Shown piece by piece: positions 50,829 through 59,687 of a stretch of DNA of 64,000 bases; the first letter of the stretch is position 1; the number at the start of each line of letters is the position of its first letter. The notes under the pieces were generated by a model. The model worked only from the letters and a program-made list of their open reading frames with translations. It did not search any database and was not told the DNA's origin. Made by a program: the position numbers and the translations under genes. The DNA lies in contig PAAY01000037.1 in NCBI GenBank assembly GCA_002698985.1, forward strand, positions 113,104 to 177,103, given 5' to 3'. The stretch is from Saprospirales bacterium (lineage in GTDB: Bacteria; Bacteroidota; Bacteroidia; Chitinophagales; Saprospiraceae).

Positions 50829-51227
50829 TTATGCACGTGTAGTGCACATTTTGTCCAATGAGATGTCACGTATGTCAATTTCTATTCTGTTCTCAATTGG
50901 TAAATTCCAGTCGCCTTCCCAACAACAATAAAACTCAATACTTTCTTGAGCCGTCATTTCGGTCAGTAAGTCGATAAGTTTCTGTGGTGATTTTTTATTT
51001 TCTTCATTTACCAATTCTGCGTCATAAAAATCTTCACTACCAAATCCAAAGTCGCAAGAACAACCTGAACTTGAACCAACATAATAAATGTTTTTCTTTG
51101 AGAATTTTGGTCGTAAAGCATTTACTTCTTCGTCAGTTGGCTTTTCAAAGTATATGACTGTTTGTCCAGCAACAAACGTCCCTAACTCTAATTCCTTGTC
51201 TGTCGATATGTAAACTGCTAAACACAT
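50829..51227 (-). CDS. hypothetical protein (single-ORF accessory unit)
   Basis: MCLAVYISTDKELELGTFVAGQTVIYFEKPTDEEVNALRPKFSKKNIYYVGSSSGCSCDFGFG...; AT-rich. Confidence 0.7.
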   Translation of the reverse strand: MCLAVYISTDKELELGTFVAGQTVIYFEKPTDEEVNALRPKFSKKNIYYVGSSSGCSCDFGFGSEDFYDAELVNEENKKSPQKLIDLLTEMTAQESIEFYCCWEGDWNLPIENRIEIDIRDISLDKMCTTRA

Positions 51228-51280: not shown

Positions 51281-51417
51281 GGCATAACGTTTTTGCGCTT
51301 GGCGTTCGTGCGGGATTTCAGGGCACAAAACTGTCAACCCAGCACTAAAGCCCAATTGAAAAACTGCACTTGAATTTAAGCACGTCACCCCGCATGACGC
51401 CAAACGCATGTTACCGG
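51281..51417. repeat. attC-like imperfect inverted repeat E1
   Basis: ggcataacg + stem tgcgcttggcgttcgtgcggg (51294-51314) pairs imperfectly with ccccgcatgacgccaaacgca (51388-51408) + tgttaccgg. Confidence 0.7.
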
Positions 51418-51553
51418 TTCGTGCTTCTTTTCTGTCGTGTTGTTGTCTGACCGTGTTGCAGTGTCTTTGTGCGTTGGTTTGGTGGCTCTTTTGCAAAACT
51501 TGGCTTTAGCGTTGGCTTGTGCGGTTTTGCAAATGTGCCACCAAATGCGTTGG

Positions 51554-51847
51554 TTAAAGGTTCTTTTGTTCCCACCAAGGTGGTTCATTTACATTGTTTA
51601 TTTTCTTTGTTTCTGTTGGTTTATTAATGTTCCCTTTTGTCGATGGTTTGTGATTATTATTCTTTGAATCAAGATATTTAATGAAATAAAGTCCAGTCCC
51701 TGGAATGCCAATACTAAAATATTTTCGACCTGATGGAGAAACTCCAAATCTAAAACCAGGAATACCCCAACTCATACCAACACCACCTTTTGAAAGTGTT
51801 GTCCTGAATGGTCCCGACCTAAATACTTTTCTAAATATCCAACTCAT
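51554..51847 (-). CDS. DUF4236-like protein
   Basis: MSWIFRKVFRSGPFRTTLSKGGVGMSWGIPGFRFGVSPSGRKYFSIGIPGTGLYF; ATGA overlap with the kinase stop. Confidence 0.83.
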   Translation of the reverse strand: MSWIFRKVFRSGPFRTTLSKGGVGMSWGIPGFRFGVSPSGRKYFSIGIPGTGLYFIKYLDSKNNNHKPSTKGNINKPTETKKINNVNEPPWWEQKNL

Positions 51848-53523
51848 GATTTAAACCAACTTTGAACCCAACCACCTAAAATACCACCACCAATTGCTCC
51901 TAAAAACCACAATTTTCCATTAGATGCACCGCCAATAATAGCTGCACCAATAACTGCAAAAATTATCGGTACAATACAACCATTGTTGTCACTACTGCTA
52001 GTTGAAGAACTGGATGATTTTGTTGTCTGGCTTGTACTTGTATAAGATGGTGTTGGCGGTTTATACGATGTAGTCGGTGGTTTATATGTACTAGTTGTAG
52101 GTGGAGTCTTAATTGTTGCTTTTGGCGGTGTAGAAACAGGCTTGTGTTTGTATAAGTCATTGAAAACATCAACTTCTTTGTCAATTACTTTTTTGGGTGT
52201 TACGGGTACTTGAATTGATTGTTTGGGAGTTGGTTTAAATTGAAGTCTTTGATTTGCTTCATTTTCGCTTGAAAGTATCTGTATTTGAGCAGCAAGTTCA
52301 ACTACTGTCTGAGGCTTATTGCCGTAGCTTGCTATTACACCAGTGACACTTACCCATTTTCCAACTAAAGATGACGGACTAATGCCATTGGCTTTCAAAG
52401 CAGCTAAACCTTCTTGCCAAATGACAATTGTGAATGTATGATTAGGCCATGCTCCACCAAAATTTAAGAATGTATATGGGTCACCATATTTGGTTGTAGA
52501 AGATTTGATTGCTCCAATCTTGCCTACAACTTCTATTTTCTCGCCAAAATGCTCAAGAATGCTACCGACTTTGCTTGCGTCTAAAATTAGATATTGACTT
52601 CTGTTAATTGAGATAGTACCAGCAGCAGATTTATTATAAGTAAAATTGCCACTTAAGAAGTCCTTTAAATTTGGAACCTTTTCAAAATCCAAATGGCAAC
52701 AGCCAATTAATCTTTCAATTAGTGGCTTTATTTCGGAAATAGCAGAAAGGTCACTAATCAGGGATGAGTTCTGTAAATCAGCAAAGTCTTGACTTTTAAA
52801 AAGTATGTTCTCGCTATTATCGTATTTTTTCCATAGCGATGGATTTATTGAAATCGCTTTTAAACCAATATAAATTACTAGTGATGAAAACCTATCAATG
52901 TGCTGATTATAATGCGATGCTGAACGCTTAGGGTGTTGGTAATTTATGTGACCAATTTCATTTGTTTTGAGAGTAGCTAATTCAGGAAAATACATTCCGT
53001 CATAGTCAATTAAATACAGACTGTCATTTTTTACAATTATGTTACCATGCTGTAAGTCACCATGAGCAATTCCAAATCTTTCTAGTTCATTGATTAGATT
53101 AACAAAATCGGAAAGGAGTTTTTCTACTTTCGCTTTTTGCGTATAATTTTTACTCAAGTAAATATTCAATGGCTCACCTTCTAGCCATTGCATTTTAATA
53201 ACAGGATATGGCTTTCCGTTGACTTTTATTCCGTCCGAAAGATATTTTGCTTCGACAAAGTATTTTGAATTGTTTTTACTTAGAAAGGTTCCAATTGCTT
53301 GATATCTTCTTTGTAAATCGGAAATATCTCTGTGAAAACATCTTACTGCCCAACTTTTTTGACTATTGGATAGCTTATAAGTAATTGTAAATCCGCCTGA
53401 GTATGGCTTTGGCAAACCCAATGGGGTAGTTTCTACAGAGCTCGATTTTAAGTCTGCATCATTGAAGGAAATTCTTGGGTTTTGTACCGCTACGTTATAT
53501 TCGTCACCCCTTGGTAAAAGCAT
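51844..53523 (-). CDS. atypical Ser/Thr kinase (TerY-P-triad type) with OB-like domain, Thr/Pro/Ser-rich linker and Gly-rich C-terminal membrane segment
   Basis: PYSGGFTITYKLS...WAVRCFHRDI; GIAHGDLQHGNIIV; YLIDYDGMYFPEL; VVGKIGAIKSSTTKYGDPYTFLNFGGAWPNHTFTIVIW; CIVPIIFAVIGAAIIGGASNGKLWFLGAIGGGILGGWV. Confidence 0.85.
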   Translation of the reverse strand: MLLPRGDEYNVAVQNPRISFNDADLKSSSVETTPLGLPKPYSGGFTITYKLSNSQKSWAVRCFHRDISDLQRRYQAIGTFLSKNNSKYFVEAKYLSDGIKVNGKPYPVIKMQWLEGEPLNIYLSKNYTQKAKVEKLLSDFVNLINELERFGIAHGDLQHGNIIVKNDSLYLIDYDGMYFPELATLKTNEIGHINYQHPKRSASHYNQHIDRFSSLVIYIGLKAISINPSLWKKYDNSENILFKSQDFADLQNSSLISDLSAISEIKPLIERLIGCCHLDFEKVPNLKDFLSGNFTYNKSAAGTISINRSQYLILDASKVGSILEHFGEKIEVVGKIGAIKSSTTKYGDPYTFLNFGGAWPNHTFTIVIWQEGLAALKANGISPSSLVGKWVSVTGVIASYGNKPQTVVELAAQIQILSSENEANQRLQFKPTPKQSIQVPVTPKKVIDKEVDVFNDLYKHKPVSTPPKATIKTPPTTSTYKPPTTSYKPPTPSYTSTSQTTKSSSSSTSSSDNNGCIVPIIFAVIGAAIIGGASNGKLWFLGAIGGGILGGWVQSWFKS

Positions 53524-54278
53524 TAGTCAATATTTATTAGTACGACAGAAATGTCATCATTTTTCATTTCGTTCTCCTTTATTTTGTTGAATGTCCAATT
53601 TATAAAATCTGTTTGATAGTCTTCATAGTTTAGTAAGGTTAGCAGACTTAGCCAAGGACTTTCACCTTGATTAAGGCGTTTGAAAATCCACATTGCTAAG
53701 GCATCTGATGCAAGTATTAATAAGTCTCCACTTTCAACCTGACCGTTCAAATATTTAACTGATTTTTCAAAATCTGTTTGAAACTTAGGATTCGTGGCAA
53801 ACAATGAAGGTGTATTGCCAAAGTCTTCAAAGCTAGTTATTGGGAAAGAATATATTAATTCATTATCCCGTACTTGAAATAAAGTGCAGTCGCCAATTGA
53901 AACTGCTTCAAAAGTTTTTTCTTCTAAATTTAAAGTGATACCTAAAAAAGTAGCAAAAGCACCATTTTCCAATTTTTGTTGGGCGTACCAAGGCAACTCA
54001 ATAACAAATGTTATTGATTGCCATGCTTCAGAAATAGCATTTATTGTAGATGGTAAATTAACTAAATCAAATGGTTTGTCTTTATAGCAACTCACTAAAA
54101 GGTCAGACCATTCTTTTGAAAATGATGATTCAGTTGCTCCGTCTGAAATAGCGAACTTTATTATTGGTTCACTTTCTAATTGTGAAATGGATGGAACTAA
54201 AACATTGTCTTCATTCTCATTTACCGAATTACCAACTTTTGCTATTGAAATGTATTTATATGAACACTTCAATATCAT
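53523..54278 (-). CDS. PP2C-like protein phosphatase
   Basis: NENEDNVLV, FAISDGATESSFSKEW, VSIGDCTLFQV, LASDALAMWIF, MKNDDISVVLINID. Confidence 0.87.
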   Translation of the reverse strand: MILKCSYKYISIAKVGNSVNENEDNVLVPSISQLESEPIIKFAISDGATESSFSKEWSDLLVSCYKDKPFDLVNLPSTINAISEAWQSITFVIELPWYAQQKLENGAFATFLGITLNLEEKTFEAVSIGDCTLFQVRDNELIYSFPITSFEDFGNTPSLFATNPKFQTDFEKSVKYLNGQVESGDLLILASDALAMWIFKRLNQGESPWLSLLTLLNYEDYQTDFINWTFNKIKENEMKNDDISVVLINID

Positions 54279-55117
54279 CTTAGTTGGAGACTTGGACGTG
54301 TTCCAATTTCAATTGCGGTAATAATTAAGTCAATATCACCATTGAGAACAAAGGCTTTTGCACCGTCTGATAGATTTAAACCAAATTCTTGAGCAGCTAC
54401 GTTTCTCATAAAACTTGGGAGAAGAGATGCACCATTAAAGAGTTTTTCGGAATAATGGTCGGGTAACTGAACTTCAGGGCCAGGAAATGAAATTGGATTA
54501 ACACTTCTTGCATTTGTATGCAGATTGAAAAGAATTACATTACCGTCATTTGAAGCTTGGCTTGTCAATTTATTCATTTCTTCTGTCGGGTCTCCGTCTG
54601 TACTCTCTCCGTCTGTTATGTGAATCACAACAGGGGGAAAACAGTTTGGATTTGATGAAAGCCAATCAGCAATAATAGTGTTCGCTTTTCTAAATGCTTC
54701 TGTCATTGGCGTTCCACCATTTGCAGTTGGGTCAAACCATATTGGAAATTTCACTGAAGTATCAACCAAGCCACCAGCACCGTCTGAAACTCTTTTTGTT
54801 CTTTCTTCAATTCTTGCTGGATTATTTGCAATCTCCGATATAGGAACTAAGTTTTTTCCCGATAAACTACCACCAAATGCTGGACCAACACCATTTGCTC
54901 CATATCCAATAACTCCAACATTATAGTAGTCTCTAACCCCTTCTGATTTTGCACACTTTATTACAAGTTGTTGTAACATTCGGTTAATAACGTCAGCTAA
55001 TGCTTCTGATTTAGGTTTTCCAACACTTACGTAATTGTCGGACATGGAACCTGATTGGTCAATTACAAAAAGAAAACAACTTGGGTTGTTTCTACTGATT
55101 TCTGCTGAGTATGCCAT
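54275..55117 (-). CDS. von Willebrand factor A domain protein (TerY-like)
   Basis: CFLFVIDQSGSMSDNYVSVGKPKSEALADVINRML MIDAS; TPMTEAF; IHITDGESTDGDP. Confidence 0.9.
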   Translation of the reverse strand: MAYSAEISRNNPSCFLFVIDQSGSMSDNYVSVGKPKSEALADVINRMLQQLVIKCAKSEGVRDYYNVGVIGYGANGVGPAFGGSLSGKNLVPISEIANNPARIEERTKRVSDGAGGLVDTSVKFPIWFDPTANGGTPMTEAFRKANTIIADWLSSNPNCFPPVVIHITDGESTDGDPTEEMNKLTSQASNDGNVILFNLHTNARSVNPISFPGPEVQLPDHYSEKLFNGASLLPSFMRNVAAQEFGLNLSDGAKAFVLNGDIDLIITAIEIGTRPSLQLR

Positions 55118-55302
55118 ATTATTTTGATTTTAATTGTTAGCAAATTTAATATTTAGGATGATGTTTCGTTGGGGCAAAAGCAAATGTGCTGCAACTGTGT
55201 CGGCTTGTGTGATGGGTTGCAGATCTTTTGATTTTGCTGAAGCGTTGGCTTGTCTGTTCATTTGTCCATTCGTTTTATTTTTGCACTGTCGTCTTTTAGC
55301 AT

Positions 55303-55440
55303 GACCGGTAACGGTCTCGTGTATGAGCAGTAGCGGATTTTATATGACTACTTTTCTGGCTACAATATACTCTAATAAAAAGAAAAAACGGTTCAAGTTT
55401 GCACTCAAACCGCTATTGCTTATACACAATGTTCTCTGCT
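55303..55440. repeat. attC-like imperfect inverted repeat E2
   Basis: ccggtaacggtctc + gtgtatgagcagtagcgg (55319-55336) pairs 16/18 with ccgctattgcttatacac (55410-55427) + aatgttctctgct. Confidence 0.75.
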
Positions 55441-55456: not shown

Positions 55457-55675
55457 TTAACTGATAACTTCTGCCTTGAAGCCCTTGCTTTGAACAATTT
55501 TTATCACTTCATCTTCGGATATTCCTTTGGAAATCACGGTAAGGATTTTGTCGCTGTTGTCCGTATCAACATCCCAATGACAAACCCCTGCGGCATTGTC
55601 AAGGTCTGATTGTACTTTGGATACGCAACCTCCACAATTGAGGTTTGTTTTGAATTTCAGTTCTTTATTTTCCAT
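55457..55675 (-). CDS. heavy-metal-associated (HMA) domain protein, CopZ-like
   Basis: MENKELKFKTNLNCGGCVSKVQSDLDNAAGVCHWDVDTDNSDKILTV. Confidence 0.88.
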   Translation of the reverse strand: MENKELKFKTNLNCGGCVSKVQSDLDNAAGVCHWDVDTDNSDKILTVISKGISEDEVIKIVQSKGFKAEVIS

Positions 55676-55771
55676 TGTTTTAAAAATTTTATTGGTTATT
55701 AAATAATGCAAATTTTGTTACTATTCCATTCTTTATTGTTGTACAATTTTGGAAATGATTTGTAAGATTTA

Positions 55772-57997
55772 CTATATTACTTTTTTCCATTTCAATCGCA
55801 AACTATTACTTACAACACTTACGCTACTCATTGCCATAGCTGCTCCTGCAATCATTGGATTGAGTAAAAAACCATTAATTGGGTATAAAATTCCTGCTGC
55901 AATCGGAATACCAATCAGGTTATAAATAAATGCCCAAAACAAGTTTTGCTTAATGGTAGCGACCGTTTGTTTGGATAGTTTGATGGCTTGTGGTATTTTG
56001 GTTAAGTCTGATGAAATGATGGTCATTTTAGCTACATCCATAGCAATGTCAGAGCCTTTGCCCATTGCAATACTAACATCTGCGGTTGCCAATGCGGTGC
56101 TGTCGTTTATTCCATCTCCAACCATTGCTACGGTTTTGCCCTGTTTTTGAAGTTCTTTTACAAAATCAGCTTTGTGCTTTGGCAATACTTCTGCTTTGTA
56201 ATGTTGGATGCCTGTTTGCTCGGCAATGGCTTTAGCGGTAGCTTCGTTGTCGCCTGTGAGCATATATAAATCAATGCCCATTTCCTGCATTTCTTTAATT
56301 GCTTGAGCAGAGGTTTCTTTTATTTTATCGGAAATAGCCACTACGGAAAGAGCTTGTTTACTGTCTGAAAACCAAATAACGGTTTTAGATAATTTGCTCC
56401 ATTCCTCCGCTCGTTGTTGCAATTCTTCGGGAATAGCGATGCTATTTTCAAACAATAACTTTTTGTTTCCTACAAAATAGGTTTCGTTATTATAGTCGGC
56501 CTTTGCTCCTTTTCCTGTAATGCTGTCAAAATTGGAAAGTGTTGTTGGAGTGACCTCTCCCAAATATTTTACAACCGCTTCTGCCAATGGGTGTTCAGAT
56601 TGTTTTTCAATACTCAAAAGAATATCTTTAGTGCTGTCGTCATTGTTCAACCAATGGATGTCTGTAACCTGTGGACGACCTTCAGTAATGGTTCCTGTTT
56701 TGTCCAAAATGATAGCATCTACTTTTTTGGCTAACTCCAAACTTTCGGCATCTTTAATTAAAATGCCTTGCTCGGCACCTTTGCCAACGCCTACCATAAT
56801 CGCTGTTGGTGTTGCCAATCCCAAAGCACAGGGACAAGCGATAACCAACACCGTTACTGCTGCTAATAATCCTTGAACTATAGCATTTTCACCACCAAAA
56901 ATCATCCAAACTATAAAAGTTAAAAGTGCGATTCCCATAACTACAGGCACAAAAATCCCTGCTATTTTATCCACCAATTTCTGTACAGGTGCTTTGCTCC
57001 CTTGTGCATCCTGAACCATTTTGATAATTTGGGCAAGCATTGTTTCCTTGCCGACTTTAACGGCTTTAAATTGAAAACTACCTTTTTGGTTTATCGTTCC
57101 CGCAAATACTTTTTCGTTTTTATTTTTCAATACAGGAACAGGCTCACCACTCAACATACTTTCATCTACATACGAACTGCCCGAAATGACCATTCCATCC
57201 ACTGCAATTTTTTCGCCCGGTTTTACCAAAATCACATTTCCTTCAATAACTTCTTCAATAGGCGTTTGCTTTTCTTTGCCATCTGCTTGAATTACGATAA
57301 CCGTTTTGGGTTGTAAGCCCATTAGTTTTTTAATAGCAGATGAAGTATTTCCTTTGGCTTTTTCTTCTAATAATTTTCCTAACAATATGAAAGCGATAAT
57401 GACGGCTGCGGCTTCAAAATAGACGTGGGCGTGTAATCCTCTTTGATGCCAAAAATCTGCAAATAACATATTGAACACGCTAAACACATAGGCAATACCT
57501 GTGCTTAATGCTACCAAGGTATCCATATTGGCTTTACGGTGTTTGGCTTGTTTCCACGCATTTACAAAAAAATCTCTACCCAACCACAAAACAACAGGTG
57601 TTGAAAATGCCCACATAATTTCATTGGCATAAGGCATTTCCATAAAAAACATTCCTATTATAACCACTGGCAAAGAAAGAATGACAGCCCAAATGGTTTT
57701 ATTTTTGAGTTCTTTAAACTTCTTTTCGTGAATGGCTTCAAGGGATTCCTGCTGTTTGGATTCGTCTTCAATTAATAAATCATATCCTACCCCTTGAACC
57801 GCTTTTCGTAGGTTTTCGGCATTGGTTACGTTGGATAGAAATTCAACGGTCAGATTCCCTGTAGCATAATTTACCGAAGCATTTACCACTCCCTCCTGAT
57901 GTGTTACAATACTTTCTACACTACTTGCACAAGAAGCACAAGTCATTCCCAAAACAGGGAAAGTTTGCGTAACTGTATTTTGATTTGTTGTTGCCAT
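55772..57997 (-). CDS. copA: copper-translocating P1B-type ATPase
   Basis: HMA GMTCASCASSVE; ACPCALGLATPTAIMVG; ILDKTGTITEG; MVGDGINDS. Confidence 0.95.
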   Translation of the reverse strand: MATTNQNTVTQTFPVLGMTCASCASSVESIVTHQEGVVNASVNYATGNLTVEFLSNVTNAENLRKAVQGVGYDLLIEDESKQQESLEAIHEKKFKELKNKTIWAVILSLPVVIIGMFFMEMPYANEIMWAFSTPVVLWLGRDFFVNAWKQAKHRKANMDTLVALSTGIAYVFSVFNMLFADFWHQRGLHAHVYFEAAAVIIAFILLGKLLEEKAKGNTSSAIKKLMGLQPKTVIVIQADGKEKQTPIEEVIEGNVILVKPGEKIAVDGMVISGSSYVDESMLSGEPVPVLKNKNEKVFAGTINQKGSFQFKAVKVGKETMLAQIIKMVQDAQGSKAPVQKLVDKIAGIFVPVVMGIALLTFIVWMIFGGENAIVQGLLAAVTVLVIACPCALGLATPTAIMVGVGKGAEQGILIKDAESLELAKKVDAIILDKTGTITEGRPQVTDIHWLNNDDSTKDILLSIEKQSEHPLAEAVVKYLGEVTPTTLSNFDSITGKGAKADYNNETYFVGNKKLLFENSIAIPEELQQRAEEWSKLSKTVIWFSDSKQALSVVAISDKIKETSAQAIKEMQEMGIDLYMLTGDNEATAKAIAEQTGIQHYKAEVLPKHKADFVKELQKQGKTVAMVGDGINDSTALATADVSIAMGKGSDIAMDVAKMTIISSDLTKIPQAIKLSKQTVATIKQNLFWAFIYNLIGIPIAAGILYPINGFLLNPMIAGAAMAMSSVSVVSNSLRLKWKKVI

Positions 57998-58084: not shown

Positions 58085-58648
58085 TTATACCTCATCCAAA
58101 GGTTTTCTTCTGTCTTCACGTATTTTTTTAAAATGACTGGGCGAAAGCCCTGTTACTTTTTTAAATTGATTACTCAAATAAGCAACACTTGAATAATTGA
58201 GTCGAAAAGCAATTTCACTTAATGATAATTCGTCATAAACCAATAGTTCCTTTACCTTTTCTATCTTTTGAGCAATAAAATATTTTTCTATGGTCGTGCC
58301 TTCTACTTCCGAAAACAGGTTGGACAGGTAGCTGTAATCGTGATGGAGTTTTTCATTTAACAACTCCGAAAGGTTGGTTTTTATATCGTTGTCCTGATGA
58401 TGAACCAAGTCGATAATGATGTTCTTTATCTGTTCAATGATACGGCTTTTTTTGTCGACAATCATTTCAAAGCCTAATGACACCAACGCTTTACTAAATT
58501 TTTCTTTTTCTTGTCCTGTGAGTTCTCTTTCAAATGTTACTTCTCCCAATTGTACATCATTCGGCTCAATTCCTAATTTATCCAATTCGCTTTTTACCGC
58601 CATAATACAGCGGTTGCAAACCATATTCTTTATAAAGAGTGTTGTCAT
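58085..58648 (-). CDS. AraC-family regulator with N-terminal HMA-like metal-binding domain
   Basis: TTLFIKNMVCNRCIMAVKSELDKLG; C-terminal AraC LSEIAFRLNYSSVAYLSNQFKKVTGLSPSHFKK. Confidence 0.88.
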   Translation of the reverse strand: MTTLFIKNMVCNRCIMAVKSELDKLGIEPNDVQLGEVTFERELTGQEKEKFSKALVSLGFEMIVDKKSRIIEQIKNIIIDLVHHQDNDIKTNLSELLNEKLHHDYSYLSNLFSEVEGTTIEKYFIAQKIEKVKELLVYDELSLSEIAFRLNYSSVAYLSNQFKKVTGLSPSHFKKIREDRRKPLDEV

Positions 58649-58714
58649 ATTTTTTCAGAATACTTCAAGTTTATCACAGGTGTTTTTTTAGCTTGCAGAG
58701 AACGCCCAAATATA

Positions 58715-58753
58715 CGCATTGCGTCTATGCACCTATACCCGCATTGCGTCTAT
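58715..58753. repeat. two 14-bp direct repeats (cgcattgcgtctat) at 25-bp period upstream of the recombinase
   Basis: 58715-58728 and 58740-58753 identical. Confidence 0.8.
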
Positions 58754-59687
58754 CAAATTGGTTCAGTTGGTAAAATTTCTGTTTAACCGTTTGGTAGTTA
58801 GTGTTTTGTCTCTTATGTTTGAAGCGAAAAAGTTTATATCCCGCAACTCTCCTGCTATGAAAACAAAGCTCACCCAGTTTCGAGACCTTTTGAAAGTACA
58901 GTGCTATGCCTACCGCACCGTCAAGTCATACTCCAATTGTGTAGCGAAGTTTCTTATGGCCTTTTCGGCTTACAAGCTTGAAGCAGTAACTGAAAAAAAC
59001 ATTGCCAACTACATCCATCACCTGGTGGAGAAAGAAGGCATCAGTGCCAGCTACCAGCGGCAGATGCTTGGGGCCATCGGAAAGTATTTTGAACTTTGCG
59101 AGGGGCGAAAACTGGACTTGAAGCACCTCTATCCGAAGCGCAATCAAAATAGGTTGCCAAAGTACCTCACCAAAGATGAAGTTCGGAAGATGTTGGATCG
59201 AACCTCCAACCTGAAGCATAGGTGTATCCTGATGCTGCTTTATGGGGCTGGGTTTCGACTGTCAGAGGTGCTCAATGTAAAGATTACGGATGTGGATTCA
59301 TCGAGTATGAGGCTGATGGTGCGTGGTTCCAAAGGAAACAAAGACCGCTTGGTTGTGTTATCTGAAACCTTGCTTTTGGAGTTGAGAAAATACTTTTTAC
59401 AATACAAGCCCAACGTATTTCTTTTTGAAGGACCAAAAGGAGGTAAGTACTCTTCGCGCAGCGTTCAGGCCATTGTCAAACAGGCAGCCCAAAGGGCCGG
59501 CATTTCAAAACCGGTGACACCACATATTCTCCGCCACAGTTTTGCTACACATCTTGTTGAATCAGGTATAGATATCCGCTATGTGCAGGAAATGCTGGGG
59601 CACAATTCCATCAAAACAACCCAGATCTATACCCACATTACCGATGTAGCCAAAGGTAATTTGAGGAGCCCACTGGATATGCTGTAA
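58719..59687 (+). CDS. XerC-like tyrosine recombinase (likely start at 58857, MKTKLTQF)
   Basis: LYGAGFRLSEVLNVKITDVD (Arg), HILRHSFATHLVESG (HxxR), LGHNSIKTTQIYTHI (H...Y). Confidence 0.92.
   Translation: MRLCTYTRIASIKLVQLVKFLFNRLVVSVLSLMFEAKKFISRNSPAMKTKLTQFRDLLKVQCYAYRTVKSYSNCVAKFLMAFSAYKLEAVTEKNIANYIHHLVEKEGISASYQRQMLGAIGKYFELCEGRKLDLKHLYPKRNQNRLPKYLTKDEVRKMLDRTSNLKHRCILMLLYGAGFRLSEVLNVKITDVDSSSMRLMVRGSKGNKDRLVVLSETLLLELRKYFLQYKPNVFLFEGPKGGKYSSRSVQAIVKQAAQRAGISKPVTPHILRHSFATHLVESGIDIRYVQEMLGHNSIKTTQIYTHITDVAKGNLRSPLDML

Follow-up and report, generated by a model that had tools for sequence, protein, structure and literature searches.

Integrons, both the mobile classes and the sedentary chromosomal ones, are the described systems closest to the locus reported here. 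They consist of a recombinase gene beside a primary attI site and of a one-way array of cassettes, each of which ends in an imperfect palindrome (attC). In the known integrons head and tail of one cassette are complementary because the recombination site of the circle is built from both cassette ends. Published surveys list almost no integrons in Bacteroidota: with IntegronFinder 2.0 one complete integron was reported in Bacteroidetes proper, that of Salinibacter ruber M1 (PMC9024848), and a survey of attC sites cautioned that other forms escape tools whose training relied mostly on class 1 sites (PMC7370490). A 64-kb stretch of contig PAAY01000037.1 of a Saprospirales bacterium (hereafter the window) was analysed. 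It contains a locus which is, most probably, an integron-like platform with an IntI-related recombinase lacking the insertion specific to IntI, an attI-like site, folded attC-like sites and exchangeable cassettes, and which belongs, to judge from the genomes searched, to a type widespread in Bacteroidota. In open-access papers, neither the site family nor an integron with a recombinase of this kind was found to be described, and priority is not certain. The site family and its fold, the arrays, the relation of cassette head to tail, the attI position, the breakpoints and the replacement of a cassette were determined by comparison between genomes.

An earlier, sequence-only reading of the window had described two attC-like imperfect inverted repeats, E1 and E2, on both sides of a kinase module. 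The repeats are real, and their strong support is comparative: single-strand folding by itself was only moderately unusual (z of -1.7/-0.6 for E1 and -2.9 for E2). Relatives of E1 and E2 were found in 24 and 13 of 121 related genomes, respectively, and both types occur throughout the order. Eighteen members of both types aligned as one family of about 125-bp sites with the layout AACG, a stem of about 20 bp, a loop of about 75 nt with common motifs, the returning stem and TGTT. This structure-free alignment resulted in one shared fold, 90.6% of the cells being paired compared with 67.5% after shuffling. A covariance model, R1, was built from the 18 members. In 118 sites aligned with it the paired cells amounted to 93.7% (shuffled 60.8 ± 0.7%) and compensatory double changes were detected in 18 of the 20 stem pairs; fitting this alignment to the model biases the pair counts towards it, and the structure-free alignment agrees with them. 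One stem pair was G.T in 118 of 118 members. An extra base on the left arm, earlier ascribed to both repeats, occurs in E1, as an unpaired T, but not in E2; the feature common to both is the invariant G.T. An extra base occurred in 26 of the 118 sites; the family shows an asymmetry, mostly not in the form of bulged bases. The outer AAC...GTT boxes had been read correctly and their poor fit to RYYYAAC/GTTRRRY was borne out: AAC/GTT is fixed, position 4 is R in 77 of 78 cases and positions 5-7 are free, leaving GTTR as the only fixed part, because each cassette sets its flanking bases.

The fold is needed for finding the sites, as a BLAST search of E1 against its own genome returned the self-match alone. 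The proposed covariance search revealed the further copies, in one-way arrays. R1 matches were detected in 70 of the 121 relatives (E ≤ 0.01) and, in a set of 198 genomes sampled evenly over the phylum, in 105 (E ≤ 1e-4). Among the genomes reached through distant recombinases, R1 matched none of the 26 from other phyla and all three from Bacteroidota; no site adjoined the named distant recombinases themselves, the three Bacteroidota genomes carrying theirs elsewhere. Among cultured strains, R1 matched 14 sites in Cyclobacterium xiamenense and 5 in Aequorivita aquimaris. In the 64-kb window no R1 site besides E1 and E2 was detected. Rfam contained no family matching the sites, no E1-type matches were found in phages and no E2-type matches in plasmids.

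The functional reading of the locus is the minus strand. In this direction the features are as follows.

58815-59687, plus strand: tyrosine recombinase, integrase candidate, divergent from the cassettes (Pfam Phage_integrase, 144.6 bits)
58701-58770, minus strand: attI-like site, putative crossover in GTT 58701-58703, minus strand ...GCGTATATTTGGGC/GTT
58695-58703, minus strand: head of cassette 1, GTTCTCTGC, complementary to the tail beside E2
58085-58648, minus strand: AraC-type regulator, cassette 1 (Pfam HTH_18)
55772-57997, minus strand: copper-type P-type ATPase, cassette 1 (Pfam E1-E2_ATPase, HMA)
55457-55711, minus strand: heavy-metal-binding chaperone, cassette 1 (Pfam HMA)
55310-55433, minus strand: E2, attC-like, closes cassette 1 (R1 104.8 bits, E 2e-18; putative crossover at the low end, AACG 55310-55313 on the plus strand)
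55304-55312, minus strand: head of cassette 2, GTTACCGGT (minus strand), exact match to the tail beside E1
54275-55117, minus strand: TerY (von Willebrand A), cassette 2 (PADLOC TerY, 343.6 bits)
53523-54278, minus strand: PP2C phosphatase, cassette 2 (PADLOC PP2C, 107 bits)
51844-53523, minus strand: Ser/Thr kinase with OB domain, cassette 2 (PADLOC STK_OB, 418.7 bits)
51554-51847, minus strand: DUF4236 protein, cassette 2 (Pfam PF14020)
51410-51418, minus strand: tail (R'' box) of cassette 2, ACCGGTAAC (minus strand), matched by head GTTACCGGT
51287-51412, minus strand: E1, attC-like, closes cassette 2 (R1 112.1 bits, E 5e-20; putative crossover at the low end, AACG 51286-51289 on the plus strand)
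50829-51227, minus strand: cassette 3 gene, 132 aa, no family matched

The left-to-right gene-sense orientation assumed earlier was rejected, because the genes, the breakpoints and the side of the recombinase all agree on the minus strand. E1 and E2 as the matched ends of one cassette were rejected as well: each closes a different cassette, E1 travelling with the kinase module and E2 being part of the copper cassette upstream. To the right of E2, at a distance of 3.3 kb, are the recombinase and attI, outside the coordinates given in the sequence-only reading. For cassette 3 no closing site was found in the window with R1 and the expected tail GTTATGCCC (plus strand) was absent; it is therefore probably truncated. 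The pair of AGCGTTGGCTTGT motifs pointed out near the repeats (about 51508 and 55241) is present, outside the sites. The first copy is part of a second, different hairpin near E1 (51478-51545; 22-bp arms, 91% complementary, 24-nt loop), and similar text was observed near 55241 and beside a site at locus L068.

In the relatives the sites occur in arrays, all on one strand, with up to 13 sites in 19 kb (L038). A cassette begins, on the strand opposite to that used in the earlier reading, with a head GTTR..., continues with at least one same-direction gene and terminates with a site ending in ...AACGTT. Of 79 cassettes, 72 had their longest open reading frame (ORF) in the canonical direction, and the median cassette length was 1.3 kb. 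These are arrays of one-way cassettes, gene followed by attC-like site, as in integrons.

In 61 cassettes, the head and the flank of the 3' site of the same cassette were complementary at 7.34 of 10 positions, compared with 3.50 ± 0.19 for shuffled pairs and only 3.66 of 10 when the adjacent head, that of the neighbour, was compared with the same tail. At positions 4-9 the head matched its own tail in 63-70 of 78 cassettes, whereas position 11 matched in 1 of 78, which makes it a near-obligatory mismatch; the complementarity extends to about position 15. The own-circle form folded on average 6.9 kcal/mol better than the array form (66 of 78, p 2e-12). As in integrons, the head and the R'' box of the closing attC-like site are thus complementary within a cassette; this includes both complete cassettes of the window, whose pairs GTTACCGGT/E1 and GTTCTCTGC/E2 have no or almost no second occurrence in the 64 kb. 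In comparison with the 7-bp box of known integrons, the complementarity here covers about 15 bp with a fixed mismatch; the invariant G.T and the long, partly conserved loop of about 75 nt are further differences of the Bacteroidota sites.

The putative crossover point was located by breaks in homology. One cassette is common to three loci of two genera (L040, L197 and L210), with 91% identity over 4.3 kb and 83-84% over 1.7 kb. The homology stops at ...AAACGTT, after which the different heads GTTGGCAGC, GTTATGCGT and GTTAAGCTG follow, and the duplicated cassettes of L175 and L200 break at the same place. The end of the cassettes is identical across contexts, therefore the site 3' of the gene travels with the gene, as in integrons. 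These breaks (AAACGTT, and 58701 in the window) place the predicted crossover at G/TT of the GTT box, as in integrons. Dispersed repeats, i.e. elements of the miniature inverted-repeat transposable element (MITE) kind or terminators flanked by genes by chance, would also appear as intergenic hairpins, often at contig ends, as E1/E2 and their relatives do. But a uniform orientation, cassettes whose two ends are complementary, attI-like junctions and loss of homology precisely at GTT would not be expected of MITEs or terminators, and we regard this explanation as highly improbable.

The head predicted from the tail of E2 (GTTCTCTGC) was found with 9 of 9 bases at the attI-like site of the window. 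Its distance to the longest recombinase ORF is 16 bp, and that to the likely ATG of the recombinase about 110 bp. In the window and in all 12 further recombinase loci analysed, a predicted head (7-9 of 9 bases) was located 16-412 bp from the recombinase ORF. The attI motif of the window recurs beside five other recombinases; upstream of the head, GCGTATATTTG plus 3-4 bases was present in one group of loci and a TATAAACAA-like motif in another. The position beside the integrase gene is that of a primary attI site, which these junctions appear to represent. Bacteroidetes promoters carry a -7 box TAnnTTTG. The motif TATATTTG in the attI-like site resembles this box, which makes it plausible that a cassette promoter has its end at the crossover. 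Two direct repeats, ATAGACGCAATGCG, at 58712-58755 in attI are candidate binding sites of the recombinase or a regulator, and a palindromic ATACGCAATGCGTAT was observed near attI in L174.

The replacement of a cassette was detected in a relative of the window genome (G003, contig corresponding to the Saprospiraceae metagenome-assembled genome JALWSS01). Its recombinase and flanking genes are 85% identical to those of the window, the identity stops at 58701, and beyond this point a different cassette with an AriA-type ATPase follows. The same contig carries a second attI copy followed by yet another cassette, the attI motif being common to the window and the G003 copies. In the second attI-recombinase copy (L136:17133-18118) the recombinase gene is split into two frames. 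Of 14 genomes in the genus, one contained the kinase of the window, and the core synteny without presence/absence variation that would speak against a cassette was not observed. The proposal of exchangeable cassettes at folded attC-like sites was thus upheld by the arrays, the head/own-tail rule, the exact breakpoints and this replacement.

The window recombinase matched NF040815 (XerA/integron integrase) with 237 bits, over the cut-off, and TIGR02249 (integron integrase) with 219.8 bits, below the cut-off of 265. Its alignment to IntI4 breaks exactly at the IntI insertion, IntI4 residues 180-247 corresponding to 24 residues in the window recombinase. The insertion was absent from all window-type proteins aligned and present in the IntI of genome G041. 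By sequence, the solved structures nearest to it are those of XerA and an archaeal XerC-like protein; however, in a quick tree the window-type group was separated from the Bacteroidota Xer proteins with 99% support, cassette arrays lie beside the recombinase, and it shares the C-terminal SPLD.L motif with IntI. Two IntI sequences fell inside the window-type group, on a long branch and with modest support. In comparisons of sequence the locus behaved like an integron in every test that could be run, and one defining feature, an IntI-type integrase with the specific catalytic-domain insertion, was lacking. Due to the missing insertion, and as the R boxes and the asymmetry of the site arms gave no clear match to the integron pattern, the locus was classed as a variant of the integron kind and kept apart from the IntI integrons.

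Ordinary integrons of the IntI kind, with a true IntI elsewhere in the genome or acting in trans, would likewise follow the cassette rule, form one-way arrays and cross over at GTT, and Bacteroidota have been named among the phyla with integrons (PMC8618304, PMC2426708). Yet canonical IntI (TIGR02249) exceeded the cut-off in only 1 of the 121 relatives, no site was found in that genome (G041), and the site family was confined to Bacteroidota with respect to the 26 genomes of other phyla, so there is very little chance that this explanation holds.

Several results weigh against the integron-like reading. The IntI insertion has been called essential for integron function in a classification of tyrosine recombinases (PMC8138268). 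At R1 sensitivity no site was detected at 27 of 40 recombinase loci, and the association of sites and recombinase at the genome level was weak (44/26 versus 21/30, p 0.026). The recombinases linked to arrays fall into several clades, therefore the family may have other jobs. The L148 array, and likewise some others, obey the head/tail rule poorly, and the first head of G003 matches its tail at only 7 of 9 positions. An IS91-linked cousin was also found: an E1-type site adjoins the genes of a tyrosine recombinase and of an IS91-family transposase on the Myroides plasmid pFM-G13 (L249:7810-10022). As a separate observation, the heads of L148 are repeated (GTTGCAAGAAAAGTAG, GTTGAAACACATTCGG) without a match to their own tails, possibly owing to a different boundary or to insertions beside each site.

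Some of these results would suit an explanation that accepts the cassettes and sites but attributes their recombination to a different enzyme, either the chromosomal Xer or an IS91-associated tyrosine recombinase, the neighbouring gene being a passenger. In its favour, 26 of the 70 site-bearing genomes have no close relative of the window recombinase (E 1e-40), the array-linked recombinases are not one clade, and the pFM-G13 site directly adjoins a recombinase-IS91 pair; among the array-adjacent recombinases checked, IS91 linkage was seen at this plasmid locus only. However, the attI-like junction was found at the distance given above in every locus examined, with recurring motifs. Near window-type recombinases 33 sites were counted in 585 kb and near Xer-type controls 2 in 362 kb, an approximately tenfold difference in density, the control loci being weaker matches of the same search and not a random draw; the recombinase was on the same side of the sites in 12 of 13 loci. 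Arrays lacking a recombinase are common in known integrons too, where attC arrays without integrase are named CALIN. Many arrays here similarly had no recombinase within the stretch read, whereas both the recombinase and the attI-like site are present in the window and in 12 or more other loci. Action of another recombinase is therefore considered unlikely.

For the integron-like platform, the most likely mechanism is that the tyrosine recombinase exchanges DNA at the GTT triplet between the attI-like site and the attC-like sites of about 125 bp, the latter recombining folded as single strands. We infer the activity of the window recombinase, the use of one folded strand (from covariation), the promoter and the excision of cassettes as circles. 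A cassette comprises one gene or a whole operon, then its own site. In the circularised cassette the head would pair with its own tail and complete the outer stem with the fixed mismatch; the completed stem should identify the site on the circle as a substrate and give it its orientation. The cassettes are read away from attI, where the promoter is probably located.

The genes of cassette 2 encoding TerY, PP2C and STK_OB form one operon and gave strong matches to the TerY-P module of PADLOC and would make up such a defence module; in contrast to the described module, it is carried as an integron-type cassette together with a DUF4236 gene. A second integron-like locus lies on the contig of the window (L137:8732-18608, i.e. 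G000:C43:48700-58600), with a recombinase 63% identical to that of the window and an attI-like site. Its one cassette, 8.8 kb, is a whole copper operon, and the flank of its closing site matches the head at 9 of 9 positions; the ability to hold whole operons is a further difference from known integrons. In the 13-site array one cassette contains a complete Thoeris system (L038:6004-8063; ThsA 673 bits, ThsB 293 bits) and another a streptomycin (aminoglycoside) adenylyltransferase (L038:3997-4860). The annotation covered ten proteins of one array, so no enrichment is claimed. The cargo of the system thus includes TerY-P, an AriA-type ATPase, Thoeris, copper resistance operons and an aminoglycoside adenylyltransferase.

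We incline, with some reserve, to the broader interpretation that the platform represents a separate, phylum-wide integron lineage, in which structure-specific recombination would proceed without the IntI insertion by reading fixed mismatches (the invariant G.T in the stem and the obligatory mismatch 11 bases outside the crossover) and not extrahelical bases, and of whose recombinase family canonical IntI may be an offshoot. The locus makes it testable whether the IntI insertion is truly required to recombine folded sites. If the integron-like reading is true, roughly half of Bacteroidota genomes would carry an unrecognised gene-capture system, which may have been overlooked in the whole phylum.

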